From positions 1 to 28,427 of the IMG/VR virus record IMGVR_UViG_3300006925_000099: a stretch of DNA of 28,427 bases. One strand, given 5' to 3'. Positions 4,348-22,324 of the stretch are shown piece after piece. Under the pieces are notes generated by a model that saw only the letters and a program-made list of their open reading frames with translations, was not told where the DNA came from and did not search any database. The translations under genes and the position numbers were made by a program. Position 1 is the first letter of the stretch; every line of letters starts with the position of its first letter. This DNA is from a virus.

Positions 4348-6219
4348 TTGGGTTTTACTGATACATTTAAAAATATAGCAAAGTCGCTTAGTTTTAGCAA
4401 CAAGTCCTATACTGAGAACGTAGTCAGACCTTCTATGGCACAGCCTTATATGGCTACCGACACAGGTGCCAAACTACCTATTTTCCCATTCCCACTCATT
4501 ATGATTTATGAGTTGGCTGACAATATTGATGCCTTGCGTATTCCTATAGAGACTCTTAACAGAGAGATGTTTAAGAACGGATTTGAGGTTGTAGAAAGAT
4601 TCAAGTTCAAATGCAATACATGTAGCAAAGAGTTTCAAACAGCACCAGAATCATCTGGTTCAATACAGAATGACGATGTAGTATTGGAATGTGACTCATG
4701 TGGATCTAAAGACCTAAGAAGACCAGACCCGTTAAGAAGAAAAATACTTGATGACATGTTGTACAACCCTGTAAACGGAAACAACCAGACAGTAGAGGAT
4801 CTTTCAAGACAGTTGGAAAGAGACTTGGAAATTGCAGACAACGCTTACCTTCTTCTTCTCAAGAACTATTTCATTGATGATGCAACAGGAAAGATTGACC
4901 ATCAGAAAAGTGAAATTAAAGAGATGATCAGAATTGATCCTCCACAAGTTGCCATGATTGCAGACAGTGACGGCAAGATTGGATATGATGACAAGAGACA
5001 GAAAATATACGTCTGTCCTAGATTTGAACACAGAGGCACTCGTCTTTACGAGCCAACTTGTCCTAAGTGCGGTGCTGAGGCACTAAAGGCAGTAATAGAA
5101 GTAAACTCAGTATACTCTGTAGGCATTCCACAGCCAAAAAGAGTCATTTATGCAGAAGGTGAAATCATATGGAAAGCAGGAAAATACAGACCTGCACTTA
5201 TCTATGGATATTCTCCTATATTTGCCGTATGGTCTAAAGCCATGTCACTGTCACACATGGATGAGTACATACGAAAGTACTTTGACAAGATGAGACCTCC
5301 AAGAGGATTGCTGTTAATTGCCTCTCGTAACTACGAGACATTTAGAAAGTCATGGGATATGCTTGAACAAAAGGCAACCGAAGACCCTTACATGATACAT
5401 CCACTTATGGTAGAGTCAGAACGTGGAAACAAAAACATGGCACAGTGGCTAGACTTTACAGGATCACTTCAAGAATTACAGTTTATTGAAATTAGAAAGG
5501 AACTAAGACAGATAATTGGTGCAATTTATGGCGTACTTCCGTTATACTATGGTGAAATGGTAGGCGGATGGTCACAGGAAGGACTGCAAGTTACAATTAC
5601 AAACAGGGCAGTCAAATGGGGTCAGGATGTCATGTACAAGTCATTCTTTAGAAAAATTGCAGAGGCAGTTGGTATTGATGACTGGGATCTCAAGCTTGTA
5701 CAGGGTGAAGAGAATGACAAACTAGCAGAACTGCAAAGAGAAGGTGTAGAAATACAAAACATGTCTTTGTTGCAACAAATGGGATTTGATGTCTCCATGT
5801 CACATAACGGAGAGTTCAAAGTATCAAAAGACCCTGTAAATCAGCCAGCACTGCCAGACAACAGCGGTGTAAACGGAAGAGGAAGAAGTGAAGCAGCACC
5901 AGAAGAAAACAGACAAAAGTTTGAAGGCTCTCCAATGCAGACAAGACCGTCAGACACGGGAGGAATTGCACAGGGAAGTCCTTCATCTGGAAGCGGAACA
6001 TCACTAAGTCAGAAGAACTTTCCTGACGGCATTACTCCTGCAAACTTTACAGTAATCAAAAAGACATTACAAACAGCAGTAGACTTTGGATGGAACAAGA
6101 CAAAAACCATAGAAGAAATAAGAAAATATGGCGGTCTAACTGTGCGACAAGCAAGAGAACTTGTCAAAAATGAATTTGAACAAATGAGGAGGTGGGAGGA
6201 TGCTGAAGAGAAAGAGTAA
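4348..6219 (+). CDS. Portal protein with zinc-ribbon insertions
   Basis: 623 residues, a usual size for portal proteins. The portal forms the dodecameric DNA channel at one capsid vertex and docks the terminase and neck. Portal-like traits are the N-terminal helices, the central region with GAIYGVLPLYYGEMVGGWSQEGLQVT, an Arg/Lys-rich core, and a disordered Gly/Ser/Pro region (about residues 495-555) before a helical C-terminus. Unusual: C89/C92 with C115/C118 form a zinc ribbon, and C223, H228, C238/C241 may form a second. The start is TTG with a TATA box 25 bases upstream. Position before protease, scaffold and capsid supports the call. The large terminase that usually precedes it is not in this window. 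Confidence 0.85.
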   Translation: MGFTDTFKNIAKSLSFSNKSYTENVVRPSMAQPYMATDTGAKLPIFPFPLIMIYELADNIDALRIPIETLNREMFKNGFEVVERFKFKCNTCSKEFQTAPESSGSIQNDDVVLECDSCGSKDLRRPDPLRRKILDDMLYNPVNGNNQTVEDLSRQLERDLEIADNAYLLLLKNYFIDDATGKIDHQKSEIKEMIRIDPPQVAMIADSDGKIGYDDKRQKIYVCPRFEHRGTRLYEPTCPKCGAEALKAVIEVNSVYSVGIPQPKRVIYAEGEIIWKAGKYRPALIYGYSPIFAVWSKAMSLSHMDEYIRKYFDKMRPPRGLLLIASRNYETFRKSWDMLEQKATEDPYMIHPLMVESERGNKNMAQWLDFTGSLQELQFIEIRKELRQIIGAIYGVLPLYYGEMVGGWSQEGLQVTITNRAVKWGQDVMYKSFFRKIAEAVGIDDWDLKLVQGEENDKLAELQREGVEIQNMSLLQQMGFDVSMSHNGEFKVSKDPVNQPALPDNSGVNGRGRSEAAPEENRQKFEGSPMQTRPSDTGGIAQGSPSSGSGTSLSQKNFPDGITPANFTVIKKTLQTAVDFGWNKTKTIEEIRKYGGLTVRQARELVKNEFEQMRRWEDAEEKE

Positions 6220-12181: not shown

Positions 12182-13174
12182 CTATTCGTTTCTAAGTTGA
12201 TTTTGAACAAAGTTGTTGTTCATAATCATCTCTTGTGCGATTGGTTCAGCTATTGCTTCTTCAAATGCTTTGTCTTCAACAGTTGCGTATCTAAAGTTGT
12301 TGTTCAAGTATTCGTGATACTTTCCTAACAATACACTTTGATAGCTGATTTTTCCATCAGTACCAAATAGTCGTTCATTCTCAAGTCTTACCTGTTCTGC
12401 GGTCTTTCCGTCATACAATATTTCACAACCATGTTGTGCCTTGTGTGTATCAGGGAAAGCGTTTGAATCACAGATTACTGACATATCAACTGCTTTTGAT
12501 GTTGCAGTATAGTCCTCAAATGGAACTGCTTGTATACCCTCGTATTCTACAAGTAGACTGAATTGATAGTCATCATCTCCTGTAGGCATATTGGAATATC
12601 CTTCGCCAACTACTTTGAGTAGTTTCTGTTGTCCTCTACATTCTTCTATTGCTAGAACAATTTCACCAAGTTCTCCGTCATACTTTACGTTGTTGACTTT
12701 CCACAAGTTAAACTCTGAAATCTCAAACTCTCTTGCTTCTTGGAACGGTGCTGTTTGTTTATCCATACCCTGTTGGCAAGTGTCAAGTTCTTTGAGCAAA
12801 TTCATGTAAACTGAATCTGTTGCGGTTGCAATACCCCTTGCAAGTTTGTTTTCTATCTCTAGGATTACTAACTCATTAGGTGTAAGTTTTGCTTTTTCCT
12901 CTGCTATGGCTGCCAAGGCTTCCTCATTGAGTCTATCAATCTCTTGTTGATAACGTTCTGCTGAGATTAAATCTCTAATCTCTTGCATACTTTCAAATGT
13001 AGGCTCTGGTATCATTCCTTGCCAAACACAATGGAATTCTACTGCAAGTTCATCAAATGAACAACTTTGTCCGTGACTGTCAAATGGAACTTCAACTGTT
13101 GCTGTTTCTGCATATACTGCACTAAATGATCCTATTGATAATAGGGCAAGTAGTGCTAATATCTTTGTCGTCAT
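12182..13174 (-). CDS. Exported protein with signal peptide, unknown function
   Basis: 330 residues. The N-terminus MTTKILALLALLSIGSFSAVYA is a clear Sec signal peptide with AxA-like cleavage near residue 22. The mature part is soluble, with helical Glu/Lys-rich regions (about 75-140) and several Cys (C38, C49 in a HGQSCSFDELAVEFHCVWQG segment, others later) that could form disulfides outside the cell. No membrane anchor at the C-terminus. It has its own promoter and terminator and faces against the capsid genes, like a moron. A host-surface or envelope function such as exclusion or receptor masking is only inference. It resembles exported proteins of Nitrososphaerota in style. Confidence 0.75.
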   Translation of the reverse strand: MTTKILALLALLSIGSFSAVYAETATVEVPFDSHGQSCSFDELAVEFHCVWQGMIPEPTFESMQEIRDLISAERYQQEIDRLNEEALAAIAEEKAKLTPNELVILEIENKLARGIATATDSVYMNLLKELDTCQQGMDKQTAPFQEAREFEISEFNLWKVNNVKYDGELGEIVLAIEECRGQQKLLKVVGEGYSNMPTGDDDYQFSLLVEYEGIQAVPFEDYTATSKAVDMSVICDSNAFPDTHKAQHGCEILYDGKTAEQVRLENERLFGTDGKISYQSVLLGKYHEYLNNNFRYATVEDKAFEEAIAEPIAQEMIMNNNFVQNQLRNE

Positions 13175-15867: not shown

Positions 15868-16842
15868 ATGGTACGAACAGGTGCACATGCATATCTTAAA
15901 TATGGATATGAATCTACATTTGGCACAGCAGCAGGAACAATAGACAAAAAATTTGGTCTTAATGATGCTTTATCTTCTTGGTCACTTACTCACAACAGAC
16001 AAGACTTACCTGCACTAAATCAAGTAACCATTGACGAATATGCTTATGGTCAACAACAAGGATCAATAGGTGTAGATTTTACACTAAGTAACCCTTGGAT
16101 TTTTAAAACAATTTTGGGCGACTGTTCAACAACTGGCTCCAATCCTTATGTTCACACTTATCCTCATGCATCAAACGGTATCAATAAAACTCCTACATCA
16201 TTTACAGCCGAAGTTGGATTTGATGGAGCAGCAGCAGATATTGTCAGAACATTGAAAGGATGTGTTGCAGAATCATTAACAATCAATACATCAGTAGGTG
16301 GACTAGTTGATTGTTCATTATCAGCAGCATACGGAAATGAAGATGCTCCAAGTACTTCATTAAACTCTGCACCATCACAACCTGACATAGAATTTCCATA
16401 CACATTTGCACATGCAACTTTGAAATATGGCGGTAATGTAATAGCACAAGTTCAAGATCTAAGTATTTCAATCAACCAATCATCATCATTACTTTATGGT
16501 TTAGGTGATCATCAGTCAGTAGATGCATACAGACAATTACTTGACATTACTGGTTCATTCAGAGCAACTTTAATTAACAAAACCGTATTAGAAGACATGT
16601 TAGAACAGATTAGCAAAGGCACATCTGGATCATACTCACAAACAGTAGGCGGTTCTCCTGAATTAGAAATTGCATTTACAAGAAATAACAATGAAAAAAT
16701 TATACTTACAGGTACAGGTCTATCTCCAAGTGACTTGAACTATGACGGTTTCAGAGCAAATGAACCAATATTTGAGAATATAAATTGGAAAATTAAATCA
16801 CTAACTGTTGCAGCAACAAACAACCAATCAGCAGCAGAGTAA
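15868..16842 (+). CDS. Major tail tube protein
   Basis: 324 residues. It begins with GAHAYLKYGYESTFGTAAGTIDKKFGL, a common start of phage tail tube proteins, and is beta-rich with strands such as LTINTSVGGLVDCSLSAAYG and VQDLSISINQSSSLLYGLG. Tail tube subunits stack as hexamers around the tape measure. It has its own TATA box and lies between terminator-like and chaperone genes, the standard order of long-tailed viruses. Three Cys are present but no CxxC pairs. Confidence 0.8.
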   Translation: MVRTGAHAYLKYGYESTFGTAAGTIDKKFGLNDALSSWSLTHNRQDLPALNQVTIDEYAYGQQQGSIGVDFTLSNPWIFKTILGDCSTTGSNPYVHTYPHASNGINKTPTSFTAEVGFDGAAADIVRTLKGCVAESLTINTSVGGLVDCSLSAAYGNEDAPSTSLNSAPSQPDIEFPYTFAHATLKYGGNVIAQVQDLSISINQSSSLLYGLGDHQSVDAYRQLLDITGSFRATLINKTVLEDMLEQISKGTSGSYSQTVGGSPELEIAFTRNNNEKIILTGTGLSPSDLNYDGFRANEPIFENINWKIKSLTVAATNNQSAAE

Positions 16843-16843
16843 G

Positions 16844-16856
16844 GTTTTTATATTTC
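16844..16856 (+). promoter_or_regulatory. TATA box for tail chaperone gene
   Basis: GTTTTTATATTTC centred 25 bases before the GTG at 16875; it selects the GTG start. Confidence 0.65.
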
Positions 16857-16874
16857 ATTACAATTACATATACT

Positions 16875-17219
16875 GTGGTCATTAAGAGTTTTGAAATTGA
16901 TTATGAAGGCAACAAAGAAACCATAGAGTATGAAGACGACTTGAATTTTGGTGAGTTAGAAGCAGTGCTTAATGCAACTGTTGACATGTCTGACGTATCA
17001 AGACCTAAAGTAAAAATACCAGAATACAGACAAGAAATTCTAATGAAAGTGTTGAGAAAGGCTCCGTTTAAAACACAAGACAGAGTTGCAATTCGCAACC
17101 TAAAATCTAGTGTAGCCAAACAAGTTATCGAGGGGGTGATAGTAGACTTCCCTTTAGCAAAGTATTTAGAGGACTGGATGATTACGTTTGTGGGAACGGA
17201 TTCGAAGAAAGTTACCTAA
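16875..17219 (+). CDS. Tail assembly chaperone (G-like)
   Basis: 114 residues, GTG start. Acidic strands at the N-terminus (FEIDYEGNKETIEYEDDLNFGELE) followed by helices. Position between tail tube and tape measure is that of lambda gpG-type chaperones, which coat the tape measure protein before tube polymerisation. A canonical -1 slippery heptamer, CCCTTTA, lies at 17150-17156 in the right phase, and the -1 frame continues past this stop to 17374. This entry is the short, unshifted product. Confidence 0.75.
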   Translation: MVIKSFEIDYEGNKETIEYEDDLNFGELEAVLNATVDMSDVSRPKVKIPEYRQEILMKVLRKAPFKTQDRVAIRNLKSSVAKQVIEGVIVDFPLAKYLEDWMITFVGTDSKKVT

Positions 17220-17374
17220 CCATACATTATTTATTTGCAAAAGAGTTCGGATGGACTAAAGATATTATAGAAAGCCTGCCTGTAGAATACATGCGTGGAC
17301 TGTTATATATTCATAAAAAATCAAATGAAAAGCCATTAAACATACCTCCTCCACCAAAACCAAAATTTAAATAA
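16875..17374 (+). CDS. Tail assembly chaperone frameshift product (GT-like)
   Basis: Slippage by -1 at C_CCT_TTA (17150-17156) would fuse residues 1-94 to 72 residues read from 17156 to 17371, giving 166 residues. The extension contains FEESYLTIHYLFAKEFGWTK followed by DIIESLP, typical of the T half of phage tail chaperones, and ends in a Pro/Lys-rich tail. The -1 frame is open from 17111 to its TAA at 17372 and has no ATG, GTG or TTG before 17289, so independent initiation is unlikely. The T part is thought to bind tail tube subunits. No clear hairpin or pseudoknot is seen at the usual distance downstream. Confidence 0.7.
17150..17156 (+). promoter_or_regulatory. -1 ribosomal frameshift site CCCTTTA
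   Basis: Matches X_XXY_YYZ (C_CCT_TTA) with the zero frame in the required phase: codons 93 (CCT) and 94 (TTA) of the chaperone gene. A GGGGG at 17132-17136 is a weaker alternative slip site. Confidence 0.65.
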
Positions 17375-17376: not shown

Positions 17377-17394
17377 CATTAGTTTATAAATCTT

Positions 17395-19713
17395 ATGGCT
17401 AACGATTATACTGTAGATGAACTAAATGAGCAGTTAAAACGTACTAATGAGATGCTAAAGGAGGCAGAAAAACGTTTTGAAGGCTTACTTAAGATAGTCA
17501 CAAACATGAATAAAACTGCCCAAAAATCAGGTGGTATGTATGGCAGTTCTGCTACAGATCAAGTGTTTAAAAGAGCAGAGAAAAAGACACATGAATTTAA
17601 CAAACAAATGGATAAAATGATGGATGTTAGAAAACAGTTAGTTGATCAGGAATATGACAGAGTAGATAAGAATAGAAAAGAAAGTCAAGAACAAACAAAA
17701 CAGTTCATTCTCATGAGAAGAGAAACTAAGGAGATGGAAGAAAGTGCAAAGACAAGAAGAAAAGAAATGTCTCTCCAAGCAAAAAGAATAGACATGATGG
17801 GCAGACTAGCAGGCGGAGCAAGCGGAGGTCTAGCAGGATTTATTGGAATGGGTTTTGGAACTGCTGCTGCAAGAGGAGCAGAAGCTAGTGGCACTGCTGG
17901 TGACAGAGTAAGTGGCATGCAAGAGAGAATAATGAATTATCAAGATCAATCAGGAAAAATAGCATCAAATGTTTTAGGAACACCTAGTAAAGGCGGAAAA
18001 ATACAAAGTAAAATGTTATCTCGTTTAGAAAAAATTTCTCCTAAATTAGCTGATCTTACATACGGTGCTAAATCAGGAGAAGGAGGAGGAAGAAAAGGTG
18101 GAGGATTAGGCAAAGCAGCAGGTGGCATAGGTGCAGCAGGCGGTATGATTGGATTGGCAGGCGGAGCAGCAGGTGGCTTGTTAGGTGGAGCAATTATGAA
18201 AGGATTAGAATCATCACCAATGTTCCAAGCAATATCAAAGATGATGAGTACTGCATTTAATCTTATACTCAGACCTATAGGTGACTTTTTCAGTGCAGTG
18301 TTCAAACCTATATCAATAGTATTAATGAAATGGGGTGCAATCAACCTTCGTAAATGGGCAGAAAGTATGCAAAATAAAACAAACGATGTTATGAACGCTG
18401 CTGATACAATGGGAAAAGGTCTTATAGCATTTTTTGATGATCCTATGGCAACATTCGGAAAAGCATTTGAACAGTTAGCAGAATATATCAGAGTTGCACT
18501 ATCACCAATACCACAGGAAGTTGCACCTATATTTGGTGATTATGTCAATGAAGCATATAAAGAAATAAATGATAACTTAAATGAACAATTAGGAACATTG
18601 GGTGGATCACTTGCAGACGGATCAATGATAGTATCTGGTATTGGTGATAGTATTGACAAAGTTAATGAAAAAATTGATAGTCTTACTCAGGACATTCCAG
18701 ATTATATGAGAAATACTATTGCTCCAAATATGACAGATGAGCAAAGAAAAGGGTATGAATCATTTGCAGGAACAGCATGGGCTAAATCTGACGTAGGACA
18801 AGCAACAGGTTTGTTTGACGAAGAAGGAGAATTAATTAAAGAAGAACTTACAATAATGGGAGATACTATAACAGAAGCAGGAACAGACTTTACTTCCAAT
18901 GCAGGACAAATGACAGATGATATGACAAAACAGGCAAAGAATATAGAAACAGAAACAGGAATACAAAATAATTATTTAGGCATAGCATCTGAAAACGCTA
19001 TAGGCAGTGCTATAGCATTGGAAGAAGGTTTTAAAGAAATTAAAAGAAGACTTGCTGCATTAATTAGGATGCAAATAAAAATGAGAACTACTGAAACAAC
19101 AAAAGGCAGAGCAGATGCAGACTTAATAAAAACTCAAAAATTATTGAATAAAGGAACAAAAGATCTAAATCTTCAACACCAGATGGATAAAATAAAATCA
19201 GGTGGAAGATTTGAACAGAAAACAGCAAGTATGTTTGGTGTAGGAGTGCATGATTTCCATAAAATGGAAGAACTTGTACGTAGATATGTAGGAGAAGATC
19301 CGTCAAAAAGAGATTGGAACAACGCTAAAAAATTAGTAAAAGAACTATCTAAATTAAAAGGCATGGGATCAAAAGGAGCAGACTTTTTGACTTTTTCTAA
19401 CAGATGGAAAAACGATTCTGCATACGAAGGCTTGTCATTAGAAGCAGCAGGAGCAAAGTATTATGGATTGGCATCATTTGCAAACGGTGGTGTAATCAGT
19501 GAGCCTGTATTTGGTATAGGAAGAAGTGGAAGGTCATATTTAATGGGAGAGAATGGAGCAGAAAAAATTTCTCCAATGAGCGGTTCGTCAAACGACTCTG
19601 TTGTAGTCAATATTAATATAGCAAAGATGTCTAGTGATGTTGATTTGAATAAGATTAAACCAATAATCGAAAGAGCATTACTTGAAACCCACGCAAGAAG
19701 AGGTATAATTTAA
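17395..19713 (+). CDS. Tail tape measure protein
   Basis: 772 residues, longest gene here. Residues 1-135 form a coiled coil rich in Lys, Glu and Gln. Gly/Ala-rich hydrophobic stretches lie around 137-165 and 230-275, followed by amphipathic helices (275-330). The C-terminus has FANGGVISEPVFGIGRSGRS, then MGENGAEKISPM, a signature end of tape measure proteins. The protein sets tail length and helps DNA entry. At about 0.15 nm per residue (a known rule) the tail would be near 115 nm. It follows the chaperone pair and its stop overlaps the next ATG (TAATG). Confidence 0.9.
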   Translation: MANDYTVDELNEQLKRTNEMLKEAEKRFEGLLKIVTNMNKTAQKSGGMYGSSATDQVFKRAEKKTHEFNKQMDKMMDVRKQLVDQEYDRVDKNRKESQEQTKQFILMRRETKEMEESAKTRRKEMSLQAKRIDMMGRLAGGASGGLAGFIGMGFGTAAARGAEASGTAGDRVSGMQERIMNYQDQSGKIASNVLGTPSKGGKIQSKMLSRLEKISPKLADLTYGAKSGEGGGRKGGGLGKAAGGIGAAGGMIGLAGGAAGGLLGGAIMKGLESSPMFQAISKMMSTAFNLILRPIGDFFSAVFKPISIVLMKWGAINLRKWAESMQNKTNDVMNAADTMGKGLIAFFDDPMATFGKAFEQLAEYIRVALSPIPQEVAPIFGDYVNEAYKEINDNLNEQLGTLGGSLADGSMIVSGIGDSIDKVNEKIDSLTQDIPDYMRNTIAPNMTDEQRKGYESFAGTAWAKSDVGQATGLFDEEGELIKEELTIMGDTITEAGTDFTSNAGQMTDDMTKQAKNIETETGIQNNYLGIASENAIGSAIALEEGFKEIKRRLAALIRMQIKMRTTETTKGRADADLIKTQKLLNKGTKDLNLQHQMDKIKSGGRFEQKTASMFGVGVHDFHKMEELVRRYVGEDPSKRDWNNAKKLVKELSKLKGMGSKGADFLTFSNRWKNDSAYEGLSLEAAGAKYYGLASFANGGVISEPVFGIGRSGRSYLMGENGAEKISPMSGSSNDSVVVNINIAKMSSDVDLNKIKPIIERALLETHARRGII

Positions 19714-20296: not shown

Positions 20297-22324
20297 ATGA
20301 CTCATATATTAAAACTGTTAAAGAATCGAACTACTGAATATACACCTTTTGAACTGGTACTGAAAAAAGAAGGTGAGCGTGCAGTTGATCAAATGGAATT
20401 CTTGGTTCGTAAAACAGATGTTTTTGCTCCAAGTGACAGGGTTGAAGTTATGTATGATTTGGTTCCTACTGAGGGTCTGTCAGCAGTTTATACGTTTCAG
20501 GGAGGAGTAAAAGACGAGAGTACCAATCAGAATCATGGAACTGCAACAAGCGTAACATTTTTAGATGAATTTCAGTATTTTGGAAAAGAGGCTGTATTCA
20601 ACGGAACGAGTTCATTCGTAACTGTGAACGATGATGATGATCTTGATTTGTCAGGACAGTTTGATATTTTAGTTTGGGCAAAATGGTCTAGTACAACTGA
20701 ACAATTCATACTTTCAAAACGCAGTAGCGGAACAAATGGATTTTCATTGTCAGTCAACGCATCATCAGCAGGTGACGTAAAATTTCAGATAGGCTCAAAT
20801 ACAGTTACGAGTTCTAGTGCAGGATTTAATGATGGTTTAAAACATCTAATAAGAATAGTTCGTAACTCTTCAAACGTTGTTACAATGTATGTAGACGATG
20901 CAAGCAAAGGAAATGTAACATCATCATATAATCCAACTGACACTAACAATTTATTGATGGGAAAAGACTATGGAGGAAGTTTTTTTGCAGGCAGTTTGCT
21001 TAGATTAAGAATATACAAAGGAGAGAATCTTTCAGACTTAAGTGCCAATCTGATTTACACAAAAATAAATCCAAGAACAGTGCTAAAGTTTGGCGGATAT
21101 GTTACAAAAATAGATTCGGATCTTACTGGAAAAAAAGTCATATGTCAGAGTTATGGTAAAATATTTGCAGAAAAAGACGTTCGTGGTGAGGCATATTCAG
21201 GAAAAACAGTGGAACATATTGTAGAAGATCTGATAACAAGCAACACATCATTTACATTTAATGACAGAGATGTTCCAACTGGTATAACTGTTGACAGTTT
21301 TACTGCTGATGGTAAATTACTTGATATAATAACAGACTTTGCAAGTTTTACAAACAGAGTATTTTATACGACTCCTGCCGAGGAATTTTTCTTTGAGCCT
21401 GTTAGTTTTAATGATACAGGTGTAGTATTTACACACGGACAAGATGCTGCATTAATCAGTGTTTCTGCCGAGGATGATAAAAAATTATGTAACAGTGTTA
21501 CTTTAATAGGTCAAGTAGAAAAGTATGATACAACAGAATCGTTTAGCGGTAACAACAACAACAAAATTTTTACTTTGACAAACACCGCAGTTTCAGTAAA
21601 GGTTAGTGTTGGTGGAACTGAAAAAGAACCTGATGGGGTTGACTATGAATTAGACACATTACAAAAACAAATAACATTTACCACTGCTCCTCCAAGTGGA
21701 ACTAATAATGTCGTAGTAGATTACCAGTATGAAAGACCATTAACAATTAAAGGTGAAAGACCTAGCAGCATAGCACAGTATGGTATTCATTCTAAACGAT
21801 TTAACCTTGACTGGATAAGCAACAGATCTGACGGTGTTAGGTTTGTACAATCATATTTAGGAAAATTTTCAGAAATAAAACAAAACATACAAATCAATTT
21901 TGGTGAGCCTGTGTTATATTTACAAGAAAATGATGTGGTAAATGCTGTAAATTCATTTCTTGGTATAAATTCAGGATATGTAATAAAATCATTAGAATGG
22001 ACTTACCCACAATTAAATACGAAATTGTCTATTGGAGAATACAGGTTTGATTACTTTGAAGACGATAAGGAAATAGTTAGAAAACTGCACGATTACGAAG
22101 CAGCAATTACCAAGCAAAAAGAGATTGAGGATTACGAGTCTCCTGAAGAAGTGCTTACTATTGGCGACACTGTAATTATGATAACTTATGATACTTTTGG
22201 AGAAACATTAAATATTACTGACGGCACTACTATAGTAGATAAAAGTGTCAACAATTACGGAAGTGGATCTTACGGATCTCAATACCCATCTCATAATACA
22301 GGAAGTGTGTATGTAAGTGGTTAG
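20297..22324 (+). CDS. Tail hub-like protein with LamG-type insertion
   Basis: 675 residues. The first about 52 and those from about 250 on resemble tail hub/Tal-type baseplate proteins (VLKKEGERAVDQMEFLVRK; VLKFGGYVTKIDSDLTGKKV; YGKIFAEKDVRGE). Residues about 53-250 form a laminin-G/concanavalin-like jellyroll: SAVYTFQGGVKDESTNQNHG, the SSFVTVNDDDDLDLSGQFDI strand, ILSKRSSGTNGFSLSV and VTMYVDDASKG. LamG domains commonly bind sugars, so this could be a receptor-contacting module. About residues 410-480 hold a small repeat-like beta domain. The C-terminus is Gly/Ser/Tyr-rich. Confidence 0.75.
   Translation: MTHILKLLKNRTTEYTPFELVLKKEGERAVDQMEFLVRKTDVFAPSDRVEVMYDLVPTEGLSAVYTFQGGVKDESTNQNHGTATSVTFLDEFQYFGKEAVFNGTSSFVTVNDDDDLDLSGQFDILVWAKWSSTTEQFILSKRSSGTNGFSLSVNASSAGDVKFQIGSNTVTSSSAGFNDGLKHLIRIVRNSSNVVTMYVDDASKGNVTSSYNPTDTNNLLMGKDYGGSFFAGSLLRLRIYKGENLSDLSANLIYTKINPRTVLKFGGYVTKIDSDLTGKKVICQSYGKIFAEKDVRGEAYSGKTVEHIVEDLITSNTSFTFNDRDVPTGITVDSFTADGKLLDIITDFASFTNRVFYTTPAEEFFFEPVSFNDTGVVFTHGQDAALISVSAEDDKKLCNSVTLIGQVEKYDTTESFSGNNNNKIFTLTNTAVSVKVSVGGTEKEPDGVDYELDTLQKQITFTTAPPSGTNNVVVDYQYERPLTIKGERPSSIAQYGIHSKRFNLDWISNRSDGVRFVQSYLGKFSEIKQNIQINFGEPVLYLQENDVVNAVNSFLGINSGYVIKSLEWTYPQLNTKLSIGEYRFDYFEDDKEIVRKLHDYEAAITKQKEIEDYESPEEVLTIGDTVIMITYDTFGETLNITDGTTIVDKSVNNYGSGSYGSQYPSHNTGSVYVSG

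Follow-up and report, generated by a model that had tools for sequence, protein, structure and literature searches.

Two tail assembly chaperone frames joined by a probable −1 frameshift at CCCTTTA in a virus with probable thaumarchaeal hosts

Results

We analysed a 28,427-nucleotide (nt) stretch of viral DNA (the window; positions 1 to 28,427 of IMG/VR virus record IMGVR_UViG_3300006925_000099) and found that a locus between the genes for the tail tube and the tape measure protein very probably encodes a G/GT-type tail assembly chaperone pair, made via a −1 frameshift at the heptamer CCCTTTA. Such a pair had been proposed in an earlier note made from the letters of the window. The locus comprises a 0-frame open reading frame (ORF), a Shine-Dalgarno (SD)-like element, the heptamer and the −1 frame beyond it:

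16875..17219, + strand: 0-frame ORF, G-like tail assembly chaperone of 114 amino acids (aa), GTG start at 16875 and stop codon at 17217–17219; assigned from the ORF, 36 relatives and an AlphaFold2 (AF2) model (predicted local distance difference test score, pLDDT, 85) that resembles tail assembly chaperones
17132..17140, + strand: SD-like element GGGGGTGAT, separated by 9 nt from the heptamer; probably stimulates the slip from upstream, judged from duplex energy
17150..17156, + strand: slippery heptamer C_CCT_TTA at codons 93–94 of the 0 frame; putative −1 slip site
17156..17374, + strand: −1 frame past the slip; encodes 72 T-like residues, YLFAKEFGWTKDIIESLPVEYMRGLL among them, and ends in TAA; conserved in relatives, with a weak phrog_9001 match

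The heptamer lies in the phase of the chaperone frame that the earlier note had given it, with CCT (17151–17153) as codon 93 and TTA (17154–17156) as codon 94. The −1 frame is open from 17111, as had also been noted, to 17371; the end given for it then, 17372, is already the first base of the TAA (17372–17374). Its first ATG, GTG or TTG is the ATG at 17291, 3′ of the FGW motif, and the predicted joined product has 94 + 72 = 166 aa with the junction at 94/95, so that the proposed lack of an early start and the proposed 166-residue protein both stand. The 21 forward ORFs scanned hold 16 heptamers of the type X_XXY_YYZ (Y = A/T, Z not G) in phase. Only the CCCTTTA at 17150 opens a long −1 frame, of 74 codons (the runner-up had 32 and the others 2–19).

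Relatives were collected by IMG/VR scans. The first, via the tail tube, yielded 9 loci; the next, via aligned 0-frame proteins, yielded 47, of which 36 distinct ones were retained. CCCTTTA was present in frame at the equivalent codons in 33 of these 36, with the −1 frame continuing to the F-G-W domain. Because one pattern in this search overlapped the codons just 3′ of the site, a second IMG/VR scan was carried out with a wider alignment and with patterns lying solely upstream of the site. It found the heptamer in frame in 58 of 58 distinct loci, a set that overlaps the first, and FGW was replaced by FNW or FHW in two of them. Comparison of related viral contigs, which the earlier note had put forward as a check, finds both the heptamer and the two-frame layout retained. 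Contigs that share the layout number in the dozens, are independent of one another and extend to identities as low as about 46%; both frames are conserved across their long overlap. Frameshift errors are common in metagenomic assemblies, but this recurrence refutes an assembly or sequencing indel within one continuous gene, and the chance that such an artefact produced the two frames is practically nil.

The heptamer itself is under selection. Among 30 dereplicated sequences, Pro 93 was CCT in 29 and Leu 94 was TTA in 28, compared with background shares in these genes of 0.39 of proline codons for CCT and 0.44 for TTA, and heptamer position 1 was C in 28 (background TTC 0.18 and TAC 0.24, ~20%). 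Parsimony on a tree of 61 sequences indicated one change each at the third positions of the three heptamer codons, compared with 10–20 at most other codons. As far as the sequences can tell, these frozen third positions are not explained by amino-acid constraint in the 0 frame. Several relatives carried −1-frame stops up to one codon from the heptamer, and none carried one after it until the C-terminus.

In one clade CCCTTTA has decayed in five ways, to CCG TTG (L058/L141), CCA TTG (L143), CCA CTA (L144), CCT CTA (L059/L145) and CAA TTA (L146). In all five variants a T_TTT_TTA of identical phase lies exactly 12 nt 3′ of the old site, and the −1 frame continues from there. A −1-frame stop codon stands immediately 5′ of T_TTT_TTA in L058, and therefore the −1 frame cannot be entered at the old site there. 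One observation that the earlier note had named as telling against it was a heptamer lost where both frames are kept; this was seen only in this clade, where T_TTT_TTA substitutes for the lost heptamer. On sequence grounds, no other single observation speaks as strongly for a requirement for slippage as this replacement. The new site is a run of six T, at which RNA polymerase could in principle stutter, and the frame change might then be transcriptional and not ribosomal. However, the longest run in C_CCT_TTA is of three bases, and what has been conserved is a tandem-slip heptamer, X_XXY_YYZ, in its codon phase, together with an SD-like element at ribosomal spacing. We regard transcriptional slippage as extremely unlikely.

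Alternatively, ribosomes could initiate internally at a non-AUG codon (a TTG or GTG that lies 24 nt past the first base of the heptamer), aided by the GGAGG in GGAGGATTGGATG, and so express the T-like frame as a protein of its own. Most of the 36 relatives have TTG or GTG at that place, and the purine-rich GGAGG is often found 5′ of it. However, the window and its twin have CTG there, several others lack ATG, GTG and TTG alike from the heptamer up to FGW, and none of the start codons is shared by all relatives. The second frame as a separate gene with its own start, the other observation named in the earlier note as counting against it, was accordingly seen in none of them as a conserved arrangement. 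GGAGG lies 1–2 nt from the codon, a spacing too close for normal initiation, and this stretch is accounted for by the dual coding of LEDWM / LGGLD. Internal initiation, which also leaves the frozen third positions and the heptamer replacement unexplained, is very unlikely.

The −1 frame beyond the heptamer is conserved as coding sequence. Changes per column in the −1-only coding region were 12.7, 9.8 and 18.9 at codon positions 1, 2 and 3, respectively, and A30, F33, G34 and W35 of the −1 domain were invariant or nearly so. To judge from these changes, the −1 frame evolves as expected of a protein under selection, with third positions changing most. It is hardly credible that the heptamer is real and only the short product matters, the −1 frame being a relic or a chance overlap; some C-terminal stretches of the −1 product do vary greatly among relatives, but no complete relative has a −1-frame stop before the C-terminal end, and both the near-invariant residues and the excess of third-position changes argue for a functional product. 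Many relatives (e.g., L020:4276-4411 and L023:4276-4432) have a long, variable 0-frame C-terminal tail 3′ of the slip site, which reaches up to ~50 residues and is rich in S, T, Q and N. This tail overlaps the T domain in the other frame and is short in the window.

Structural comparison was based on the AF2 model of the 0-frame protein. The only re-aligned PDB chains with Z ≥ 2 were 3KLU (YqbN), 2OB9 (HK97 tail assembly chaperone) and 3FGX (Z 3.6). YqbN aligned over 85 residues at 2.6 Å (Z 7.6) and the HK97 protein over 85 residues at 4.5 Å (Z 4.8), but with 4–7% identity and Z below the range that proves kinship. BFVD matches named tail assembly chaperone had E values of 8e-4 and 3e-3, and the nearest matches included Bacillus phage and HHTV-2 proteins. 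The fold comparison of the modelled G part gives modest support, and no proof, for its being a tail assembly chaperone. The T part (model pLDDT 73) showed a weak match to the tail assembly chaperone family phrog_9001 in 8 of 34 members, with a best E of 0.0038. A PDB sequence profile search returned a putative tail fibre chain (9l9p, E 0.0014), and nothing when run with the T part. The window chaperone gave no match in tblastn against phage records, the T part gave only chance matches there to a Rhizobium phage helicase, and the chaperone was not found in sequenced bacterial and archaeal genomes. What links the locus to known chaperone families is its position, its layout and a modest similarity of fold, and not its sequence.

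The SD-like element was identified from its pairing with 16S rRNA. In thaumarchaeal genomes the 3′ end of 16S rRNA is GGATCACCTCCTT (host 16S 3′ end, GGATCACCTCC), and the pairing energy of the mRNA with AUCACCUCCU showed a sharp minimum in windows ending 11 to 8 nt 5′ of the heptamer. The mean duplex energy was −10.0 kcal/mol in 30 sequences versus −5.3 (standard deviation of the mean 0.43) in synonymous-codon shuffles, a contrast that is less independent than this deviation suggests, as the shuffle is uncorrected for relatedness. The element is stronger than codon choice explains.

Several results weigh against a frameshifted chaperone pair. A Foldseek search of the 0-frame model against the PDB gave no match at E < 1, the fold matches obtained on re-alignment (Z 7.6, 4.8 and 3.6) are modest, and neither the 0-frame nor the −1 part matched a Pfam chaperone family beyond chance. 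L045 and L055 have a weak SD-like element, and the T_TTT_TTA clade lacks one at the usual spacing. Although a downstream stem or pseudoknot accompanies many known −1 sites, none was detected at this site beyond chance (seven single folds, z −0.78 to +0.83), and the consensus fold pairs the heptamer itself, with little covariation. An Rfam search of the window gave no match.

These observations would fit slippage driven by pairing of the internal SD-like element with 16S rRNA alone, with no downstream RNA structure, the need for the element having been lost when the site became the more slippery U_UUU_UUA. We put this forward tentatively, rating it at a little short of an even chance; if true, rRNA-mRNA pairing would for the first time be shown to set a −1 frameshift in archaea.

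For the G/GT-type pair as a whole, the following course can be proposed. The majority of ribosomes would keep to the 0 frame as far as 17219, yielding the short G-like protein of 114 aa. In a minority, tRNA-Pro on CCU in the P site and tRNA-Leu on UUA in the A site would both slip one base back, onto CCC and UUU, and translation would then continue in the −1 frame to give the 166-aa G-T fusion. Slippage is probably promoted by the SD-like GGGGGUGAU, ~10 nt 5′ of the heptamer, through base pairing with the 16S rRNA 3′ end of the ribosome that is translating the message; downstream structure seems to play no part. If the two parts act as in phage lambda, the partner of the G part would be the tape measure protein, to which the T part would recruit tail tube subunits.

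Comparison with known systems

A frameshift in tail genes is conserved in long-tailed phages (Xu, Hendrix and Duda 2004, as summarised in PMC5009743). The locus resembles lambda gpG/gpGT in having overlapping frames between the tube and tape measure genes, an in-phase heptamer for a −1 slip, and a short product with a minor fusion product, the last two as predicted here. Lambda slips at G_GGA_AAG, whereas the window has C_CCT_TTA and an upstream SD-like element, and no sequence similarity between the two was found in family libraries.

G/GT-type −1 frameshifting has already been proposed for the haloarchaeal viruses HVTV-1 and HCTV-1/2/5 (PMC5009743, PMC8211752), and the public records of HVTV-1 and HCTV-16 are annotated with a −1 frameshift tail chaperone. 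The statement in the earlier note that such a heptamer is rarely documented in archaeal viruses is fair, although these haloarchaeal precedents are in print. Druskaviridae and their relatives (HVTV-1, HCTV-1/2/5 and HCTV-16) are, like the virus studied here, archaeal tailed viruses with homologous tube and capsid proteins and an annotated or proposed −1 frameshift chaperone at the equivalent place, but their hosts are haloarchaea.

The spacing of the SD-like element (~10 nt 5′ of the heptamer) is like that of dnaX-type sites (10–14 nt). dnaX also uses a downstream hairpin (PMC3711429); downstream folds in the window were no better than shuffles, and its signal therefore differs from that of dnaX. 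Saccharolobus solfataricus fucA1 was reviewed in 2021 as the sole archaeal −1 frameshift shown by experiment (PMC8211752). Slippage at the chaperone locus would, like that of fucA1, be a −1 slip on archaeal ribosomes. In contrast, fucA1 is a cellular gene with an A_AAA_AAT site and a putative stem-loop, not a structural virus gene. Literature searches for CCCUUUA with frameshift returned only a Giardia virus paper, and those for CCCTTTA with slippery returned nothing relevant.

What is new here is the probable thaumarchaeal setting, the different heptamer, the depth of conservation, a stimulator that probably acts by rRNA pairing and has no downstream structure beside it, and a naturally moved slip site. 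The archaeal viral cases of −1 frameshifting so far are predictions from a handful of haloarchaeal genomes. Dozens of natural variants, including the clade with the moved site, are ready cassettes for testing slippage on archaeal ribosomes. Gene calling that depends on start codons would miss the T part in these viruses.

Neighbouring genes and probable host

Three further features adjoin the locus:

15868..16842, + strand: tail tube protein, upstream neighbour; PF18906 Phage_tube_2 (E 3e-19), and 35% identity over half to the HCTV-16 tail tube
16847..16852, + strand: TATA-box-like TTTATA, 28–23 nt 5′ of the chaperone start codon; putative function, from sequence
17395..19713, + strand: tape measure protein, downstream neighbour, 772 aa; from position, length and composition, with homologues at the equivalent place in relatives

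All 36 loci have the tail tube gene 5′ of the chaperone, and most of the longer contigs have a tape-measure match 3′ of it, which bears out the order tail tube, G/GT, tape measure proposed for the window. The tape measure protein had no significant family match of its own. Nearly all relatives have a TTTATA-like box ~25–30 nt ahead of the chaperone start codon; the box and its spacing fit an archaeal promoter and a leaderless mRNA. In a sigma-70 promoter scan of the region, the count was no higher than in shuffles. A second TATA-like box, TTTATAAA (17383–17390), ends 4 nt before the tape measure ATG (17395), and many relatives have similar boxes near the start. At archaeal spacing TTTATAAA would start transcription inside the ORF, and therefore either the box is no promoter or the true start codon lies further in.

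The matches to the capsid and tube proteins of the window are proteins of archaeal tailed viruses, mainly Druskaviridae. amoC is present in four related contigs (L062:1570-2130, L063:1501-2058, L153 and L154), and in L063 it lies shortly 3′ of the capsid gene. Viral amoC fitted the bacterial amoC model poorly, and an archaeal origin was therefore tested, and found: the one viral amoC compared was 94–97% identical to amoC of Nitrosopumilaceae and kin. There are published reports of amoC in marine thaumarchaeal viruses, with which these four contigs are compatible. No amoC was seen among the ORFs of the window, and its own host is therefore assigned via the relatives; the hosts are probably marine ammonia-oxidising thaumarchaea. 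The view of the earlier note that this is an archaeal virus is supported by the capsid and tube matches and by amoC in the related contigs.

Other ORFs of the window showed further features. At residues 85–125 of the portal protein (4348–6219) there is a zinc-ribbon-like insertion, which matches PF09723 at E 2e-4 but falls short of the curated cut-off; another Cys cluster follows further along. A minus-strand ORF of 330 aa with a signal-peptide-like start (12182–13174) lies inside the forward structural gene block. A putative tail protein of 675 aa (20297–22324) contains a laminin-G/concanavalin-like domain (PF13385, E 5e-11, residues 102–242), which suggests sugar binding.
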